A stretch of DNA of 64,000 bases from Nymphaea colorata (lineage: Eukaryota; Streptophyta; Magnoliopsida; Nymphaeales; Nymphaeaceae): NCBI RefSeq assembly GCF_008831285.2, contig NC_045145.1:2954723-3018722 (forward strand), read 5' to 3'. Shown in pieces: positions 8,700 through 63,100 of the stretch; within the stretch, counting starts at the first letter, position 1; every line of letters starts with the position of its first letter. A program made the position numbers and the translations under genes. Below the pieces are notes generated by a model. The model was given only the letters and a program-made list of their open reading frames with translations, had not been told where the DNA came from and made no database searches.

Positions 8700-11092
8700 A
8701 TGGATCCTGGTCGCTATGTTCTTCAGCAAGGATGGGATACTAACAGTGTAATTGTGGTTTCCTCCTTAATAACCTGTCCGGGATGATATTCACCATTTAT
8801 GGCTCATGTGATTGTTCTCAGTATTTAGTGGCATCACCATAAAGAACAATCAAGAAACCCTGTCCATGAGGATGTGGAATGGATTTGTATCCACTATGAT
8901 TTTTTCTTGCTGACTTGACTTGTTCTGTGAATCCACAGGCATTGGAAGGGTATGGTTCAGTTCTTGAGCCAGACTTTAGGTGAGAACATCCACATGCTGC
9001 TTTCTATGAAAGTTTGGTATGTATATTGAGGATTTTACCTCCTGGTAGGTGGTTCTGGTTTTACCAACGGCTCCTATCCAGGCATGTAAGATATCCTGTT
9101 AAGATATTTTTGTTTGCTCTTATAGGCATGACGGTCGGTTATGCATATTTTGTGCCTTGCAAGTTCTAGATTACTCTATGATTTGTTTTTGATTTGCATT
9201 TGAATTTCATATAGAATTGCTTTCCTTGTGGACGAGCTGTATCACTATCACCTATTTTTCTGCGCTTCTAATAATTACAGCTTTTGCATTCCTTTTTTTT
9301 TGGGGTTGATTTTTCTATCTCAGCAGAGTTGGCAGTTCATATGGTGAAAGAAGATATCTGGATGGAAGTCTATCACGGGACAATGCCTATCGAAGAGATG
9401 GCTTTCATCGGGACATGGTTGAGAGAGAGAATTATCCTTCCACATCACCTGTTCCTGGCATGTGGTCACAACAGAGAAGACATAGTTATGACGAAGAAAT
9501 GCCCCTTGCCCGGGAGAGTAGAAGACATGAAAAAGATCCCTATGTGGACTCTTTCCATGAAGATCATTATCAAAATATTGATAAGTACCATGAAGTTGAT
9601 TCCTTTCGTGAAGATTTCATGGAGGTGGATGACTATGGAGACGCTGAGGGATACCGTGATTATGGGTTTGATAGGTCTATAAGGCCTGGTGTTCGTGATC
9701 GCGATAGTGTTGCAAGTGATGACTATGATTATCGCCATCGTGCTTCTCACCAGAACAGGGAGGATAGTCGTGAGAGAGATTATGATTACTCTCGGCATCA
9801 CTATGACTCTGACCATGAAAGGAGCAGAAGAGAGAGTGGCTGGCGTAGGCGTGATCGTGAAAGAGATAAGAGATGTTCTAGTCGTGAAAGGGAGCAGAGT
9901 CCACAGAGGAGGCAGCATGAACATTCTCGGTCTCGTGGGCATGATGAGCGGCAGCGATCTAGATCTCCTCGAAGTCACAGCTATGGACGAAGCCACAAAG
10001 AGGGCAGCTATGATGATAATCGCTATGACAGGGGTGAGAAAAGGAAAGATCGAGATGATAGGCGTCATCATGAGAACTTGACTGTGGTATTGTGCGATCT
10101 TCTTTTGCCCTTTATTTTCCTCTTACATTTTATTTTTTTGGAAAAAAATGATTTTCGGTGCTCTTCCTGGCAGGCTCCTTCAGCAACACTCGTGGTGAAG
10201 GGCTTATCTCAGAAGACTACGGAAGAAGATCTATATCAGATTCTTGTAAGATATCGCCCTTTCTACACCTTGATATCCACCTCGTTCAACACCTATAGTT
10301 TAGAAATATTTCTTTTTATGTTCTAAAATTTCTGTTTGTGTTCTCAGAGGGGAGCGTCACTTGAATACTTTTTCCTACTAATATAATTTTGAATATTATG
10401 AGATTTCAAAGATCTTTTATGTCAGGGCAGTTTGCCTTGCTGAGATACTGTTTCTAAACACCCAGATGCAGTATGCAAATACAGACACATGGTATTAGTC
10501 TGTTAATGGGTTTCTTAGTTTTGGTGTTGCAACCTTCGTCATGGAAATCTAATCTCAGACAAAACGGTAGTCTTCAGATCATGTTTAACATTAATTCTGC
10601 TATGTTCACAACATCATTATGGATGTTTTAAGCATATTTAAACCTTGTTCGTATTTGTGAATTGTGAAGGATTAGATATTCCCTATCTTGAACATTGAAG
10701 GTCATGCTTCATTGGAGGTGATGAAGTCATGAAACCTGTTAACATGCTGAATAAATCATGTTAAGCACATATGATATGACATATAACTGGGGGGAATTTT
10801 TGGTTGTTAGTTGAATCCCTTATATTGAGCCATTATAATTTTTTGTGATGCATTGTTGATTTGCATTAATTGGGTCTCCAAAAATGAAAAGTCAACATTG
10901 ATGTCTCTTTAGCATGAGAAGTTTACTAATTGTTAAAGTTGATCCGAAATGGTCTCCTGGGCGATTAAACAAGTTCATGAATTCAGAGTCTTCAAACTCT
11001 GGCTGGGGTGCGCTGACAATTTGCTCTTTTTTTTTTGGTTAATCATTGATAGAATAGTAGCTTTGTGCTTGCTAATTTGTTGCTTGTAGCAA

Positions 11093-11148
<56 letters not shown>

Positions 11149-14100
11149 ATCCTTGCTGCACCCCCACCCTTTTCTTTTGAAAAATGCTGCACCTTGAACC
11201 TGTGTGACATAAGTGAGCTACTAATTTTCCCCCATTTTGAAACTAAATCTTATGCTAGATGAAAGATGATTTAACCTATGTCACCTGAGTGCGGGGTGCG
11301 GGTGCCGGAGCGGCACATCCCAAAAAATTTAGGTGCGGTAGTGCGGCGAGGGTATTTTATTATTATTATTATTGTTTTTAATTTATTATGTATAACAGAT
11401 TATGCATGTATATATTATTATTACAATTTAGTTATTAATGTATATAACATACTTGAATAATTGTATTGCATAGGAAAATATCAGAACAACATATATTATA
11501 TAAGTAATTTAGTAATATGACATTCTAACTAGGCTCGGGTGTGAGTCGGAGCCGCACCCATGTCCGGTGCGCACCTGACTCGATCCAACTTGGGTGCGGC
11601 AGTAAAATAGAAGAGTCCGGGTGACTTAGGATTTAACTGCTAGTTTGCTGTGCAAATTCACACTGAAGGTATTATACAACTAAATTCAGTATGTAAAGTT
11701 TAGACCCATATGAGCAAAAGTTTATGTCACCTATGGTATTATCACTCTGAATGATGGTGAATTTGCTTGTGTATGCGCTCATGATTATGTTAGTGCATGA
11801 ACATTAACAAGTAAGGATGCTATTCATGATAGGCTGAATGGGGACCCCTTCGACATGTTCGTGTGATAAAAGAACGGAGTTCAGGCATCTCACGTGGATT
11901 TGCATTCATTGATTTTCCTTCTGTGGTATGATTCAGAATTGATATTCTGTTCATTTTGATGTTTGAAAGTTGAATGCTAGAGTTGACCACTGTTGCTATG
12001 CAGGAAGCTGCACGTGGTATGATGGATGGGATTGGGGAGGATGGCCTGGTTGTTGATGGGAGGAAGCTTTTCTTTGAATATAGGTAATTTTGTTGGCTTT
12101 AGAAGTTACTTATGATTCTTTGAAACTACTGCAGTCATTGAATAAAGTTTTGGTTACTTGAAAGTTGAAATATGAAAGATGGAGCACTTGATATATTCCA
12201 CATTACATGATTGTGTCAAACAACTTGTGCATTGTTAAGTATTTTTAATTAGTTTTTATTCATGTGCTATGTGCAGTTTGATCTTCTTGGTGCTAGTGAC
12301 TCTTGTGTGCAGTTTGTGTTTTCTTTTTTTTTGGGTTAATTTTTATGTAATTTGATGGCATATATTATACATTATTGTGATACAGTAGCAAGCCAACTGG
12401 TGGCATGAATTCTGCTGGTCAGGACGGTGCTACGAGGGCAGTTGGCCATGGAAGCAGAAGTATGGGTGCAGCGTCTGATTGGATGTGCACTATGTGTGGT
12501 TGTGTTAATTTTGCACGTCGGACTTCCTGTTTTCAGGTTTGTTGTTGTTTTCCCCACTATGTTTATATACAATTCTTTCTTCCTGTCTGATATATCTTGT
12601 TCTTTTCTCAGTGAATGCTTTTATAACACTGGTTCTCCTAACTTCCATCTTCACTTGATGAGCAAGGGATTACATGCTCAGCATGATATGGTTGATAATG
12701 AGGAATGACTTAAAAGCCAGCATTGGTTGGGTTTGTCAGGGGAAAATGCTTATGTACTATGGTGATGAAGTTACAAAACTGGAACTTCTTTATTATAACT
12801 ATATAGATATATAATTTTCAAATTATTTTTAATTTCATCGCAACATTGAGGATTTTTTTCTTCGTGTATGAACCTCTAATTTTAGTTATATCAAGACTAT
12901 TTTGATATTTTCTCAGCTCTAGTTGAACATAGTTAGTCTTTTCTTGCTGAGGTGCCTGGATTTATGGCTGTACATTTATAAGTTAATTGTTTATGGTCAA
13001 GTTTTGCCACGTTTCTTGTTCTAGCTGTACATTTATAAGTTATTTGTTTATGATCAATTTTTGTCACGTTTCCTTTTCTTTCCTTTTCCCGCCTCTTAGA
13101 ACTCAATTTAGAAAAGGTAAAGCCATTGGTACTAAATGAGTATGACTTTAAATGAGTATGAGATGAACATGAAAACGCACTGCCTTATCAAACACACAGA
13201 GCTCATTTGCGTAGCAACTTTCTGAGCTACTGAACAGAGTAATTGCTAGGAAAGAATGGCTGGATACTTCATCCATTTGTCTTTGTTTAACGAACCATGT
13301 ATCTGTTCTATGAGAAGACTTAACCAGATGTTTGTCATGTATTTTTTCATGACCATCACAATTCTTTTCTTTTCTCATTTTGGCAGTGTAATGAGGGACG
13401 GACTGATGATGCTCCATCTGCTGATATAGCTACATCTAGTGCAATGCCTGCTGGAAAAAGGGGGGGAGAGACTGGTTTGTTACTTTCTGATTGTTTTTTG
13501 ATACGTCAGTATGCGTATGTGTATAAACTCATAGTTTGGTATTGTATTTTGAAGGTCCCACTCATGTTTTGGTTGTTCGAGGTTTGGATGAGAATGCTGA
13601 TGAGGAGATGCTCCGCTATGAGTTCTCCAAGCATGCTCCAATTAAGGTTTCATGTTATATAGTTTATGACATTTGTGGAAACTCATTTACTATTTCTTCA
13701 GTCCTGATGTTGAGTTACTGACCATTATGGCACTAATGTTATGACTGTATGCAGGATCTAAGGCTTGTTCGTGACAAGTTCACTCATGTTTCTAGGGGTT
13801 TTGCTTTTGTTCATTTTCATACAGTAAGGCTTTCATGATTTTTCCTTTAACCATTCATTTTTTGCGTCTTTGTCTTCAGTCTTCACTAATCCACATATTT
13901 AGGTAGAAGATGCTACCAAAGCGCTTGAAGCAACAAATGGCACAGCCCTTGAGAAGAATGGTCAGATATTACGTGTAGCATATGCAAAAAGCATTCATGG
14001 ACCAGGGCCTGGAGCATCTGGCAGTTCTCAGTCTAGCAGCCTAGCAGCTGCTGCAATTGAAGCAGCTGCATTTGCACAGCAGGTTCTCTTAATTGCTATT

Positions 14101-17100
14101 GCTGCTCTCTTCTAAGTTTCCGAACCACAATCCCTCCCCTTTTTCTGTATGCTGTTCGATTGCTAGTGCAGTTGGTTGAGGTGGATGGCGTGCAAGAGTG
14201 GTTTTGTGGTTCAAATCCTTTGTTGCAAGCTAAAATCTAGTGAACATTTAATGCATGTTTGAGTCAGAATAGGGTGAGATTCCTTAGTTGAGTACTGGTC
14301 TTACCTGAGTTATTTCATCTTGATGGATTCTCTATGCCATATAACTACAACTATGCTCAGGGTTGTGAGCAATCATGATTAGGAACACCCTTAGAGCTTT
14401 CACTTCTCAGATCCATTAAGACGATAGTCACAGAAAAGTGCGTTTTTTTTTAAAAAAAAAAACCTGATAAATTAACTGGCCGTTTTAAACTGCAAAAAAA
14501 CGCTTTTTTTTAAAATGTAAAAAATTAAAAAATGCATTTTTAACACGTTTTTTTTGCGTTTTTTCAGTTTCTTTTCACTTTTATCATTTTTTTCAGTTTT
14601 TTTAATGTCAAACAGTTTTTTTTTTCATTTTTATTTTTTATTTGTTGCAAATCTACTGATCTTTTGATGTTTGTGTTATTAGTTTTTCATTTTTTTTTTC
14701 ATTTTTATTTTTTAAAATTTGTAAAAAATTACCGTATTTTTCTCATATTTTTTCCATTTTTTTTCAAGCTTGCCATATTAAACCCGAGAAAAACCTTTAA
14801 AACTCTGAGATGTTATTTGTGACTATGCATACGATCACATGTTGCCACATGAAAATGACATAGGAGAATTCATAAGAATACATTAGGCCACGTTTGATGG
14901 CCTGGATTTTTTGAAGGGGAATTTTTGCAGGAAAAAAAATCCACGGTAAACTGACATGAAGGTAATTTTTTCTTTTTCCCGTTTCAGGCCATGTTTGATG
15001 GCCTGAATTTTTTTTTAGGTAAAAAATCCTTAGTTTGATAAAGAGAAAAAATTTTTCATGGAAAAAATCATTGACCGTTATAACACACTGTCAATCCATT
15101 TTGAAAGAAATCGATCTTTTCTTCGATCATGGCAACGCTTTGGTTAAGGATTTTAGGCGACAAAAGCATCATTTTCACTAATTCAGAGTGCTCGATTCCC
15201 ATACCAAAGCGTTGTCATGATCGTAAAAGATCCCAACCTTCCTGCAATTAACGTAGCACAAATCCAAGCAACGTGAATCCGCGAGATGACTCTTGAGCAG
15301 GACCCACTTGAGATCATCAAACAATCCGTCGTCTTCGCCCGTTGATTCCTCTTCCCTGCGGCCCAAAACAAAGGGAAACGCCAGACAGATGCCGACCAAC
15401 TGCGTCCTGCTGAACCCCAACTCGATAATGGCGTCCAATCGGCAGCAGAGGAGCGATCCGTCGATGTCGAAAATCGAAGCGTCGTGACTGTAGAGCAAGC
15501 TGAGCTTGGTCCACGAGAAACCGTAGTTGGAGAGCGCAGAGATGGAGCTCAGCAACTGGGGGTTATCGCAGAGGAAGAGGCGATCGGCGGGAAAATGGGG
15601 GTTTTCATGGGGGAGAACGAGAAAGCTCGAGGAGAGAGGAAGAGGAAGAAGAAGCGAGGATGAGGAAGATAGGATAACAGGGAAGCGGGTAGCAGGGGAG
15701 GCACGAGGTGGTCGGGGCGAGCGAGAAGAAGCCCTAACGGGCTTTCTCTTCTGCGAGGGTAAATTTCCCCCGAAAAAAAGTCGGACCCGGGAGGGTCCGA
15801 CTTTTTTCGAGGGAAATTTACCCTCAAATTCATTATTTACCGTGGTAAAATTTCCGGTGTTTGATAACACCAGGAAAAGTCGTACATTTTTTTCTTTTTT
15901 CACTCGGTGCACAGTATTTTCCATGGCAATCAAACGTGGCCTTATATTCACATACAGTCAGATAAAAATGTATACGTACACGTTCACATTCACATATAGT
16001 TACATAGAGACTAGAGAGGGAAGGAAAAAGGGATGAAAAGAAGGAAGAATAGCCTACTGGGCAGTTTTAGATTGTTGTGATGGTGGATCATTTCTTCTAT
16101 GCTCAAGATTGTTTGTGCAATCTTATTAATAAGCATTCCTTTTGTAGTATGATGCTGCTGGTTGGGCACCAAAAGAGTATAATCCAGAGGAAAAACAATC
16201 TACTGGTGGCTATGATCAAGACACTCATCGAGCTAATGACAAATCAGCACTCCAATCAGGCTTTGTCTGGGATGAAGCTTCTGGCTATTATTTTGATGCT
16301 GCTTCTGGATTTTATTATGATGGCAACACAGGTAGTACCTTTTTTTTTAACTGTTTGAGACTTTGAGTAGTGTTTATCCTTGTAGTACGGTGGTCTTCAC
16401 ATCTTTTCAAATAATGTTATTTGCTAGGAAGCAGAAGGAAGAGTTCTCTTCATGCTTGTAATTTGAAGCATTTTGGATTAGTTTCAGTCTATTTAGCTCC
16501 ATCTTGTGAAAAAATAGGAAATATTTGTAGACAAATTTATGAGTGCAGTTTTTCGTTGTTAGTTGGAAGCAATATTCTTCTCATGCAATGTTTGATGAAA
16601 CTACATTTTCCTGGGTTGGCGAGGGCCCTTTAGCTTGCAAAAAGATTGTAGCAGAAAATGTATTCCTTGTATTGGCATGGTTAGTTCTGGTGTAAGCAAA
16701 TGAAACAAGTTTTTCCCCAGAAAGGATCCTCAAATGTGAGGAAATAGGTGGAGGGTCCAATTAATTTTGTTTCACAAAATTCATTCTGTGATCACAAGTA
16801 GGTCATAAGTTAAGTCTCCCACCACAAGTATGATTCTTCTTTGCCTTTCATGTGGACTAGAATCTGAATCTATCCTCGCCTTCCAGTGCATGTGACGTCT
16901 TTACACGTGGACACATCTTTCTTCCCTTTCTACCTTTCTGCTTCTGCTAACCCCTACTTTGTGTCATGTTTCTGTGTTTTTTTTTCCTTTGGGCTGTAAA
17001 CTGTGTGCTTTGAACGAATGACCTTTTATTCATTTTGTACCATAGTCGCAAATCTGGTTGTCAGGTCATTATTGTGATGTTTTGTCAGGAAAGTTTTAGG

Positions 17101-25285: not shown

Positions 25286-25716
25286 GAAAGATCTCGGACG
25301 TCACGGACAGCGCCAGTCATTCTCTCTCTCTCTATTCTACAGCTTTGCTCTGAGCCCTTTTTTTTTACCATGAAAGCCATTTTTTCGATTTGGGGTTTTC
25401 AATGAATAGATCTTGATAGCAAGTCGGCCAATTATCGTCTTTCTACTTCTCCTGCTGTCGTTTGAGCGCTATATGCGCGGCCGCCTCTGCTAAAAGCAAG
25501 AAGGTGATCCCTTCTCTCTGTCTTTGTCTCTCCTTCTCTCTATATCTCTTTGTCGGTGGACAGGAGTGTCCTCGTTCTGCTTTCTCTCTTTCTGTTGTTG
25601 CCTTGTCAGAGGTGGCTCAGTTGGTACATCTTTTTTGTGTTATTGAATTGTAGAGGAGGCAGAGAGGGGAGGAGGGAGGGAAATAGGGAGGTGAGAGTGC
25701 TTTCTTGCCCCCCAAC

Positions 25717-27099
25717 ATGAGGATGTCCTCGAGGGCTTCGGGCATCCCCAGAGGCAGGCAGATCCAGAAGACCTTCAACAATATCAAGATCACCATCCTC
25801 TGCGGCTTCGTCACTATTCTTGTTCTGAGGGGCACCATCGGTGTCGGCAATCTCGGCGGCGGCGGCGACGCCGACAACAATCAGCAGCTGATCGAGGAAA
25901 CGAATAGGATTCTGGAAGAGATCAGATCTGATCACGACCCGGACGACGACGTTGAAGTCAGGGCTGCTACTCGTGGTGGTGATGGTGGTGGTGGCACTGA
26001 TGCCGCCGGTGGGGACAGCGGCGAGAATGCGCTCGGCAAGGCAAGTGAAGCGACAGCAGGACTCGTCAACGTGACCTACACTCTGGGCCCTAAGATCACC
26101 GATTGGGATGAGCAGAGGAAACTCTGGCTTGCTCAGAATCCAGAATTCCCCAGTTACATAGATGGTAAGCCTCGGATCCTCCTTGTGACCGGCTCCCAGC
26201 CGAACCCTTGCGATAACGCCATCGGCGACCACTACCTGCTCAAGGCTATTAAGAACAAGATCGACTACTGCCGCCTCCACCGGATCGAGATCGTCTACAA
26301 CATGGCTCATCTGGACAAAGAGCTCGCCGGCTACTGGGCTAAGCTTCCGTTGATCAGACGGCTGATGCTCTCACATCCAGAGATCGAATGGATCTGGTGG
26401 ATGGATAGCGATGCCCTCTTCACCGATATGGTCTTCGAGATTCCGATGCACAAGTACAAGGACTACAATTTCGTCCTCCATGGCTACGAGGATCTCCTCT
26501 TCAACCAAAAATCGTGGATTGCTCTCAACACGGGCAGCTTCCTCTTCAGGAACTGCCAATGGTCGCTAGACCTGTTGGATGCCTGGGCACCCATGGGACC
26601 TAAAGGCCCTATTCGAGACGAAGCAGGGAAAATACTCACGGCGAACCTTAAGGGCCGGCCTGCATTCGAGGCCGACGATCAGTCCGCGCTCATCTACTTG
26701 CTAATCACTCAGCAGGAGCAGTGGATGAATAAGGTCTTCATTGAGAATTCTTACTTTCTCCATGGGTACTGGGCTGGCTTGGTCGATCGGTATGAAGAGA
26801 TGCAAGAGAAGTACCATCCTGGCTTGGGGGATGATAGGTGGCCTTTCGTCACCCACTTTGTTGGATGCAAACCTTGCGGGAGCTATGGTGATTATCCAAT
26901 GGAGAGATGCTTGAGCAGCATGGAGAGGGCCTTCAATTTCGCAGACAACCAGATTCTTCAGATTTACGGTTTCACTCATAAGAGTCTCAAAACTCCCAAG
27001 ATCAAGAGGACAAGAAACGAGTCGTCTTCACCTTTGGAAGAAGAAGACAAGCTTCACCTTCGACATCCTGCATTTGTTTCCGGATCACAGAACCAATGA
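25717..27099 (+). CDS. XXT1: Xyloglucan 6-xylosyltransferase (GT34, XXT1/XXT2 type), 460 aa, intronless
   Basis: Golgi type II membrane glycosyltransferase. It transfers xylose from UDP-xylose to O-6 of glucose in the beta-1,4-glucan backbone of xyloglucan. The frame is open further upstream only through a TTG, so I chose the first ATG (25717), giving MRMSSRASGIPRG; length equals Arabidopsis XXT1. A short basic cytosolic tail precedes one membrane anchor (about residues 25-45, ITILCGFVTILVLRG). The stem is Gly/Asp-rich with one NVT sequon at N118. The GT34 domain follows: YTLGPKITDWDEQR, GDHYLLKAIKNKIDYCR, LPLIRRLMLSHPEIEW, the metal-binding DSD (about 230-232) in WWMDSDALF, LNTGSFLFRNCQW, EADDQSALIYLL, LHGYWAGLVDRYEEM and HFVGCKPCG. 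XXT1 and XXT2 are not separable here; XXT5 is less likely. No introns or frame breaks. Confidence 0.93.
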   Translation: MRMSSRASGIPRGRQIQKTFNNIKITILCGFVTILVLRGTIGVGNLGGGGDADNNQQLIEETNRILEEIRSDHDPDDDVEVRAATRGGDGGGGTDAAGGDSGENALGKASEATAGLVNVTYTLGPKITDWDEQRKLWLAQNPEFPSYIDGKPRILLVTGSQPNPCDNAIGDHYLLKAIKNKIDYCRLHRIEIVYNMAHLDKELAGYWAKLPLIRRLMLSHPEIEWIWWMDSDALFTDMVFEIPMHKYKDYNFVLHGYEDLLFNQKSWIALNTGSFLFRNCQWSLDLLDAWAPMGPKGPIRDEAGKILTANLKGRPAFEADDQSALIYLLITQQEQWMNKVFIENSYFLHGYWAGLVDRYEEMQEKYHPGLGDDRWPFVTHFVGCKPCGSYGDYPMERCLSSMERAFNFADNQILQIYGFTHKSLKTPKIKRTRNESSSPLEEEDKLHLRHPAFVSGSQNQ

Positions 27100-59941: not shown

Positions 59942-60123
59942 ATATCACCAGTTGGTGCGCAGAGCACGCCTGAACCTGTTCACATCCCTGTACTTCATGG
60001 TGATTTGATTGCTCAATATCTCCGTTTTTTAGCAGTTTAAGGGAATTCTTGAATGCCCATTTCAAGAAACAGACCGAGTGAGTGATTCAGTTTGGAGGAG
60101 CATTTTAGCTTGCGTATTGAGCA
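59942..60123 (+). other. Inferred leader (5' UTR) portion of the HYP1-like first coding exon
   Basis: The stretch TTTTTTTCCATAG ending at 59941 is a good acceptor, so I infer a leader intron between the GC-richer region near 59390-59650 and this exon. Two short upstream open frames lie here (59997-60008 and 60053-60085). No transcript evidence is available. Confidence 0.4.
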
Positions 60124-63100
60124 ATGATCGTGACAGCTCTATTAACGTCTGTTGGCATCAATTTTGGCCTCTGTATCCTGTTCTATACATTGTATTCTAT
60201 ATTGAGGAAGCAGCCAGGGAACGCCCATGTCTATAATGCTCGGTTAGTGGCAGAGAAGAAAGTGAAGGAGGGAAGTCATTTCCAGTTGGATAGGCTGTTG
60301 CCTTCAGCTGGTTGGATAAAAAAGGCATGGCAGCCATCTGAGGAGGAGTTATTGTCCATTGCAGGATTTGATTCTGTGGTCTTCATCCGCGTCTTCATCT
60401 TTAGGTATAAATGGATTCTATCTTACAAGTTTCTTATTTGGAAATTGTCTCGAGCCACCTACGTGGAAAAGATGGGAATTAAATGCTAATGTAGCATGCT
60501 CCACCTGAGTAAAGAGAGACAGCTCCGTCCAACCAAGATCCTTAGCAATCAGCTGGGGAAATTTTATCCAATTTGGTTGATTGAGAAGATATAAGATACG
60601 CATTGATGGATCTTGTGTTCACAGTGCTTTTTTAGTGCTTCCATACTCTCATTTTTCGGTTCTTTGGATGGATATACATAATTCCCCTTGGTTCACAGTT
60701 AATAACGCGTATGGTTCATGCTCCAACCGCAGAAAGAGAGGATGCTCCGTCCAATCTTAAAGCTTGGAAGACTTTATTGGATTTGGTTGCTTGAGAAGAT
60801 ATAATATACTTCTTGACAGATCTTGTGCTCACAGTGCTCTTTTAGTGCTTCAGTTCTCTGTTTTTTTGGCTCTTTGAATGAATGTACATGGTTTCCTTCG
60901 GATCACTGTTAATAAAACATATGCCGCATGTACACATAGTTATTGCATTTGGCACAATTATGCTTACGTTTCTTTTATCTGTATGTAAATCTGGAAATTG
61001 CACATGTGCCACATCACTTGACAATAACCAAAATGCATCACACGTTTTTGGTTGACTTAACCTCCTCAAAATCCACACACTATGCCATCATATGCATCAT
61101 GTCCATACGATGCCTTAAGTATATTATTCCCAAAGACGTGAAACTTTGGGGCCTGTATAGAGGATTACGTGACCATAAGCTAGCCAAAAAGTGTTTAGCC
61201 CTGTAAATGTCTTTATTGTATACAGTCTCCAAGTTTCCAATTGTGGATCACATATGAAAAAGGATCATTTCAGTTCATTCTCCTGGAAGTGTTTATTTCA
61301 GATAAATATTTTTTTAGCTTTGTTTATGCATTCACTAGCATCCCCTGATGCTGTTGTTATATAATAAAAATACGGTACTTGATGTGTTTTTAGTTATTTC
61401 CTTCCTGTCATATAATTAGGTTATTATATTTGTCTTTCCTTGTTATCTTTTTACTTGTTTGTCTTAATTTTTTGTGTATATGTTTATGACAGCTTGAAAA
61501 TATTTTCACTTGCTGGAGCCATAGGGATATTTGCTCTTCTTCCGATAAATTATTTGGGGGGACAACTAAGCGATATAGATTTTGCAGATATTCCCAATCA
61601 GTCCTTGGACCTGTTTAGCATTTCGAATGTGCAGAATGGCTCCAAATGGTAATCCATTTCCCAATTCTTTTCCTCTTCAACACTTATTGTGTATCATTTG
61701 CTTTATATAGGCAGACCCATTTAATGTGACTGTCTGATCCTTGGAGGGCTTCCTCTCATTGACCTGCAAAGGGATCTGTGGACCTGGCTAGGTGAGTTGG
61801 TCTGAAGCTTTCAAGGAGGTCTAGACTTATTACCTTTGTTGTGGGTCCCTGCTAGGCAAGGGGGAGGTATATGGTGACTTTACGCAACTGGAACAGGGAA
61901 TGTCAAACATGTACCTCCTATTATCTGGAGATTGGCTTGTTTATCATCTGTCAATCTTGAGTAGAACATTTACAAGTTGAGCCTGAATCTAGTTCTACTT
62001 GTACTCAATTGTATGTCTCCACTCACAGGCCAGCTTCTCTGTATTCTGTATCATGAACAGTTATGCCAATTTTTCCCCTTGTGAATTGTAAAGGCTCGTG
62101 TACCTGAAGAGTGTTATTGTCAAAAAATTTGAGTGCACAAAAAATTATTTTTTCATCCTTGAAGAATCTTTTCACAAATTGCAGTTTTTTAGTTTTTTCA
62201 TTCCTTGTCATCATGCAGTTTAGGGGAGGGTTTTTCCAGCCATTCCTGCTTTCAGAACAACATCACAAATTCCACATAACTGCCTGCTTATTTATTTCCC
62301 CTTCTCTTTTCATAATTTATTAAATGAGTACTTGTGGGATATTATTGTTGCATTCTGCATAATGACAAATAAACTTTGCTGGGAGTTTATATTCTTTGTA
62401 TTTATTTTAAGCAACATTGGCCTTTGTGCTGCCAGATTTTATGAAATAAGATGCATTCTATTTGTTGGTTCGTTGTTAGATACTTGGAGATTTAGTCTTT
62501 TAGGCTTATTAATTTTCTTTTGTCTATTTAGTATTTAGACAATATGGCTTTCTTAATTTTTCTGTTTCATCAAACCAAGAACTTCTGTGCAGGTTATGGG
62601 TACACTTTGCTGCTGTTTATATCATCTCAGGAGCTACTTGCTATCTTCTTTATATGGTAAGCTAGCAATCCCTGCTACTTATTCTTTCAGTTGTTCACTT
62701 TTTTGCTAGGAAAAGAAGTGGCATTTTGATCGATTCAGCTTTGGCAATCTTTTTTCTGAAACTAGTGGTCTTAATGTCTTCTATTTTCCCATGCGTACAA
62801 ATCACTGTTGGATTTTATCTACTGATAGAGTAGCAGTGCTATTAGCATGCAGCTAAATCTGTTGTTTCAATATGTGCACTAGGTTTATCTGATTATATCT
62901 TATTAATACTTTTGTTCCTCTAGCAACTGCATATTGTATGCATGAGCTAAATCACTCTTAATGGACGGAATTTTTTTATGCAGGAACACCATTATATTAC
63001 TTCTAAGAGGCTTGCATATTTCTATTCGTCTAAACCTGAACCTCATGAATTCACTATTATTGTTCGTGGAATCCCTGTGGCTGAAGGCAGTACTTTGGAT

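Follow-up and report, generated by a model that had tools for sequence, protein, structure and literature searches.

How did part of an mTERF gene come to lie inside an intron of a SUA-type gene of Nymphaea colorata, and does it do anything there? The window, i.e., the whole stretch of 64,000 nucleotides that was analysed, carries on its plus strand a host gene with the domain order RRM, RanBP zinc finger, RRM, OCRE (in two exons) and G-patch, which we take to be the SUA/RBM5 layout, both RRMs and the zinc finger each falling under the Pfam cut-off when taken singly. We consider, with a probability of roughly 0.9, that the mTERF sequence was brought here by a non-autonomous PIF/Harbinger-type (Tourist-like) Pack-TYPE transposon that inserted in this SUA-type intron and is most likely a passive passenger in it. 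The element displays terminal inverted repeats (TIRs), a TTA duplication, same-ended relatives in the genome, no transposase, an intact mTERF donor and an antisense position in the intron, and these lines of evidence are taken up below together with the ways in which the cargo may have been captured and the effects that it could have on its donor (coordinates in Table 1).

The intron is flanked by an upstream exon (...AFAQQ) that ends at 14082 and by a downstream exon (YDAAGW...), containing OCRE, that begins at 16148. Both splice sites were predicted from sequence; 803 and 206 nt separate them from the element, whose mTERF cargo is antisense to the host gene. Because a genome search with the OCRE exon recovers that exon alone, there is no paralogous locus to show an empty insertion site, and none was seen. 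An (AT)n palindrome with 38-nt arms is also found between exons of this gene (window 11085-11160).

Table 1 Features of the element and of its host intron, in window coordinates
Feature	Position	Strand	Remarks
Predicted host intron	14083..16147	+	2065 nt; GT at 14083, AG at 16146-16147
Left TTA target-site duplication copy	14883..14885	.	directly outside left TIR
Whole transposon	14886..15941	.	1056 bp; TIRs, TTA flanks and genomic copies
Left TIR	14886..14902	+	17 bp
Family left end	14886..15084	.	second copy of terminal motif at 14987-15013, in most relatives examined
Captured mTERF piece 1	15085..15207	-	donor codons about 449-490; 98.4% over 123 bp
Hairpin arm 1	15113..15144	+	32/32 identical to donor antisense strand, exactly complementary to donor mRNA
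Hairpin arm 2	15203..15232	+	made by filler junction
Junction filler	15208..15218	.	about 11 bp replacing about 567 bp of donor
Captured mTERF piece 2	15216..15591	-	donor codons about 135-260; 94.4% over 376 bp; BLAST edge overlaps filler by 3 bases
GC-rich, UTR-like piece	15592..15754	.	not from mTERF donor; 15622-15754 partly common to relatives without mTERF cargo
Family right-end palindrome	15755..15825	.	occurs across family
Right TIR	15925..15941	-	17 bp
Right TTA target-site duplication copy	15942..15944	.	directly outside right TIR

The element is bounded by the TIR pair GGCCACGTTTGATGGCC (left) and GGCCACGTTTGATTGCC (right), identical at 16 of 17 positions and each adjoined by TTA; these may resemble known PIF/Tourist ends. 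Judged on length alone the pair is ordinary for an AT-rich window, in which 3 of 297 pairs were retained after the removal of 294 low-complexity ones, the mean of 20 shuffles being 2.9. When at least 8 G+C in 17 are required, the element's pair (listed in two registers) is the sole survivor and 39 of 300 shuffles yield a pair. The addition of equal 3-bp flanks to this floor leaves the element's pair in the window against one of 300 shuffles, and that of TTA/TAA flanks leaves it against none of 300 (0/20 in the 20-shuffle set). The decisive evidence for a transposon, above these shuffle statistics, is the family of genomic copies.

A search of the host genome (408 Mb, 783 contigs) with the whole element gave at least 56 matches from the best 40 of 185 candidates, and the left end alone occurs in at least 40 places (best 40 of 123 candidates, the element itself counted) at 77-100% identity. 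Sixteen relatives (L011-L026) were compared and their outer ends sought by a strict pattern; seven carry both ends and the remaining nine show at most one. Six of the seven two-ended relatives (L011, L014, L017, L019, L020 and L026) are flanked left and right by TAA, and L013, in which both ends are likewise present, has no target-site duplication. This last copy (L013:982-2155) is rearranged, its outer flanks being inverted and not repeated, with a right-type end on each side as judged by eye.

The interiors of the family vary. Four copies carry the mTERF cargo, i.e., the element, L011, L012 (whose right end is missing) and L013, and L014 has the left and right parts of the element with other DNA in between. 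At L014:1175-1790 the element's ends thus enclose a cargo different from mTERF. Relatives with and without mTERF cargo alike contain the additional left end in the interior and the palindrome on the right; as RNA the palindrome (15745-15835) folds at -55.3 kcal/mol (z -9.0), and 15755-15825 gives sub-threshold Rfam matches to three miRNA families. The GC-rich piece at 15592-15754 has 10 matches in the genome, five of them neither in the window nor in a copy with mTERF cargo, and no gene of origin was identified among these 10. Since its larger part is common to L014, L015 and L016, all without mTERF pieces, this piece seems to have been aboard earlier than the mTERF sequence.

No transposase was detected in any of the 27 stop-to-stop stretches of at least 25 aa that overlap the element, the Pfam scan of which returned mTERF and a chance-level match to LELP1 (E 0.096, half its cut-off). 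The ends and the missing transposase are hence as the first-pass annotation had described them (17-bp TIRs with one mismatch, TTA on both flanks), which 16 of 17 matching positions and 27 of 27 scanned stretches confirm. DDE_Tnp_4 genes, i.e., those of PIF/Harbinger-type transposases, are plentiful in the genome (at least 150 from the best 150 of 307 candidates, those listed exceeding the cut-off); among these listed matches none was linked to the element's ends and no autonomous same-ended relative was identified. At 3164 bp, L017 is the longest of the relatives seen; the five of its 22 open stretches that were scanned show no transposase. This copy (L017:1009-4172) has a TAA duplication and several open stretches, and the same five yielded no Pfam family above the cut-off.

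The source of the cargo is likely an intact mTERF gene on another contig (L009:3357-5069, i.e., C12:14995356-14997068), a single-exon open frame of 570 aa that matches the Pfam mTERF family with 113.7 bits (E 1.1e-32). A second, partial mTERF relative (L010, 93% over about 203 bp) makes a paralogue a possible source of the larger piece, although the main donor is the better match. The minus strand and the mTERF identity proposed by the first-pass annotation for 15277-15585 both stand; the extent does not, as the cargo runs longer (15085-15207 and 15216-15591). At the protein level, a PDB search with frame B (15068-15214) reaches human mTERF domain protein 1 at E 5e-5, and the best nine of its 10 matches are mTERF. 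Frame A (15181-15612) is weak by itself (Pfam mTERF E 0.14, no PDB match, mean pLDDT of the AlphaFold model 52.5), and the two frames joined reach 24.4 bits for mTERF, the cut-off being 23.1. A viral-contig scan with the mTERF piece gave six pattern matches and no relative among them.

The checks that the first-pass annotation had set for its reading, i.e., an intact donor alike at the nucleotide level (98.4% and 94.4% for the two pieces) and other elements with the same ends (found, with TAA duplications in six of the seven two-ended ones), both came out in its favour. A PIF/Harbinger-like Pack element with an antisense mTERF fragment inside a SUA-type intron is accordingly supported by the donor, the family and the TAA duplications.

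How does such an element compare with known classes? Tourist-like MITEs of the PIF/Harbinger superfamily have in common with it the TTA/TAA duplication, the AT-rich foldback ends and the intronic site, whereas the element is 1056 bp long and has a GC-rich cargo. Pack-MULEs likewise capture gene pieces between TIRs, sometimes antisense to transcripts; MULEs, however, have long TIRs and 9-bp duplications, and the element, with TIRs of 17 bp and a duplication of 3 bp, does not fit this class. Our literature search found no paper that pairs mTERF with a Pack-MULE. A 3-bp TAA/TTA duplication is the signature of Tourist/PIF elements in the part of PMC10004981 available to us, and we find TTA at the element and TAA/TAA at six of the seven relatives with both ends. 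Captured host-gene pieces without a transposase, together with an intact donor elsewhere that is alike in DNA, place it among the Pack-TYPE elements, those of the PIF superfamily being known from maize and rice according to the accessible text of PMC8903248. The Pack-PIF elements treated there resemble ours in their short TIRs, captured coding pieces and copy families with varying interiors, and differ, as far as that portion of the paper goes, in that the cargo here is mTERF. The view that PIF-type capture is little described does not hold, as PMC8903248 deals both with elements of the Pack-PIF type and with the genes captured by them. The Pack-PIF class is already known, and the element adds one member with mTERF cargo.

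The two mTERF pieces meet at the filler junction. A frameshift between the pieces by a small insertion alone was considered and dropped, the comparison with the donor having revealed a deletion of about 567 bp together with the filler. The filler junction creates an inverted repeat (15113-15144 and 15203-15232) of 32 nt with one 2-nt gap, the ungapped core of which is alike at 23 of 26 positions, as compared with at most 19 in 60 shuffles. In SUA sense, the RNA of 15095-15250 is predicted to fold into a hairpin of -50.1 kcal/mol (z -6.0), as good as which none of 200 shuffles was, with a stem of 21 consecutive pairs including one G-U, i.e., the near-perfect stem of about 21 pairs expected of plant MIRNA genes. 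Because the donor holds no partner for arm 1 beyond 18 of 32 positions, arm 2 looks new, seemingly a reverse copy of arm 1. The filler junction and the hairpin are also present in the three sister copies at 97-99% identity, and the junction therefore predates the spread of these copies. The sister hairpins fold less strongly, at -45.2, -43.3 and -37.2 kcal/mol.

From these observations a sequence of events can be proposed, in which the middle of a family element would have been replaced by DNA of the mTERF donor, about 567 bp of donor DNA would have been lost at a repair junction, the cargo-bearing element would have spread to a total of four copies or more, one of which would have been inserted into the SUA-type intron by a transposase acting in trans. 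As for the first step, we give about even odds to break repair within an element, during which gap filling and template switching would have copied donor DNA into it. The missing 567 bp and the 11-bp filler, seemingly copied in reverse from nearby sequence, are what such a repair could leave behind, L014 offers an example of one chassis with swapped cargo, and gap filling with template switching has been argued for animal Pack-TIRs in the available part of PMC8277862; the filler event, however, may postdate the capture. We find it doubtful that two adjacent family elements fused and then moved as one, even though the fusion of neighbouring elements is favoured for Pack-PIF families in what we could consult of PMC8903248. 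An argument for fusion that had drawn on the internal left end and the right-end palindrome was withdrawn, as both occur in relatives with and without mTERF cargo; being common across the family, they are no evidence of fusion and therefore say nothing on the capture route. A pattern search of L009, moreover, found the donor gene to be without element ends. For at least one step the filler junction leans towards template switching during gap filling, but it does not settle the entry of the cargo. With donor, cargo, junction and sister copies all readable in one genome, the steps of a PIF-type gene capture can be ordered.

Does the cargo act on the gene from which it came? As far as can be judged from sequence, the element is most likely carried passively in the intron and removed with it by splicing, and this is likelier than an action in trans. 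The first-pass annotation had pointed out that the SUA pre-mRNA would be complementary to the donor transcript, and as a statement on sequence this is right, the SUA-sense strand holding 227 21-mers exact to the donor antisense strand in seven stretches of 25-117 nt, the longest at 15091-15207 with the hairpin arm 15113-15144 inside it. Such antisense RNA might pair with the mTERF mRNA or feed small RNAs, and the intronic copy might in this way regulate the donor, which we regard as very unlikely despite the antisense orientation and the exact complementarity to an intact donor. In the nucleus, RNA from introns usually does not persist for long, which counts against such a role, and there are three further copies of the cargo, so the intronic insertion is not the sole possible source. 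Antisense transcription over rice Pack-MULEs is nonetheless reported in the available part of PMC1808428, and the consulted portion of PMC8277862 discusses sense and antisense small RNAs for Pack-MULEs and Pack-TIRs.

It is more improbable still that the hairpin at 15113-15232 is a newborn microRNA gene directed against the mTERF donor. Its fold energy and stem given above, an arm complementary to the donor mRNA at all 32 positions and a donor that lacks the partner arm (best 18/32) would all suit such a gene, and the layout fits the model in which plant MIRNA genes originate by inverted duplication (PMC3237417). The MIRNA genes born in that way are like the element in having a hairpin arm identical to a coding gene, but the likeness has limits, since the arms of the candidate hairpin are short and owe their origin to a repair junction within a transposon. 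None of the 14 Rfam matches with E up to 1 comes near the gathering score, so that no family supports the hairpin; its weaker folding in the sister copies gives no sign of its being kept, and a plain repair scar could account for it. Equally slim are the chances that the filler of a Pack-PIF repair made a microRNA precursor in a SUA-type intron, which would link SUA transcription with a factor of organelle gene expression. If the hairpin were processed, it would mark a route from gene capture by a transposon to a microRNA whose target already exists, and a newborn precursor would mean that the birth of a microRNA had been caught in a gene-capturing transposon. The passive passenger remains our preferred reading.

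Elsewhere in the window, a GT34 glycosyltransferase (E 9.9e-63) is encoded by a long open frame at 25687-27099, and an RSN1_TM domain (E 7.5e-18) by an exon at 60121-60489.
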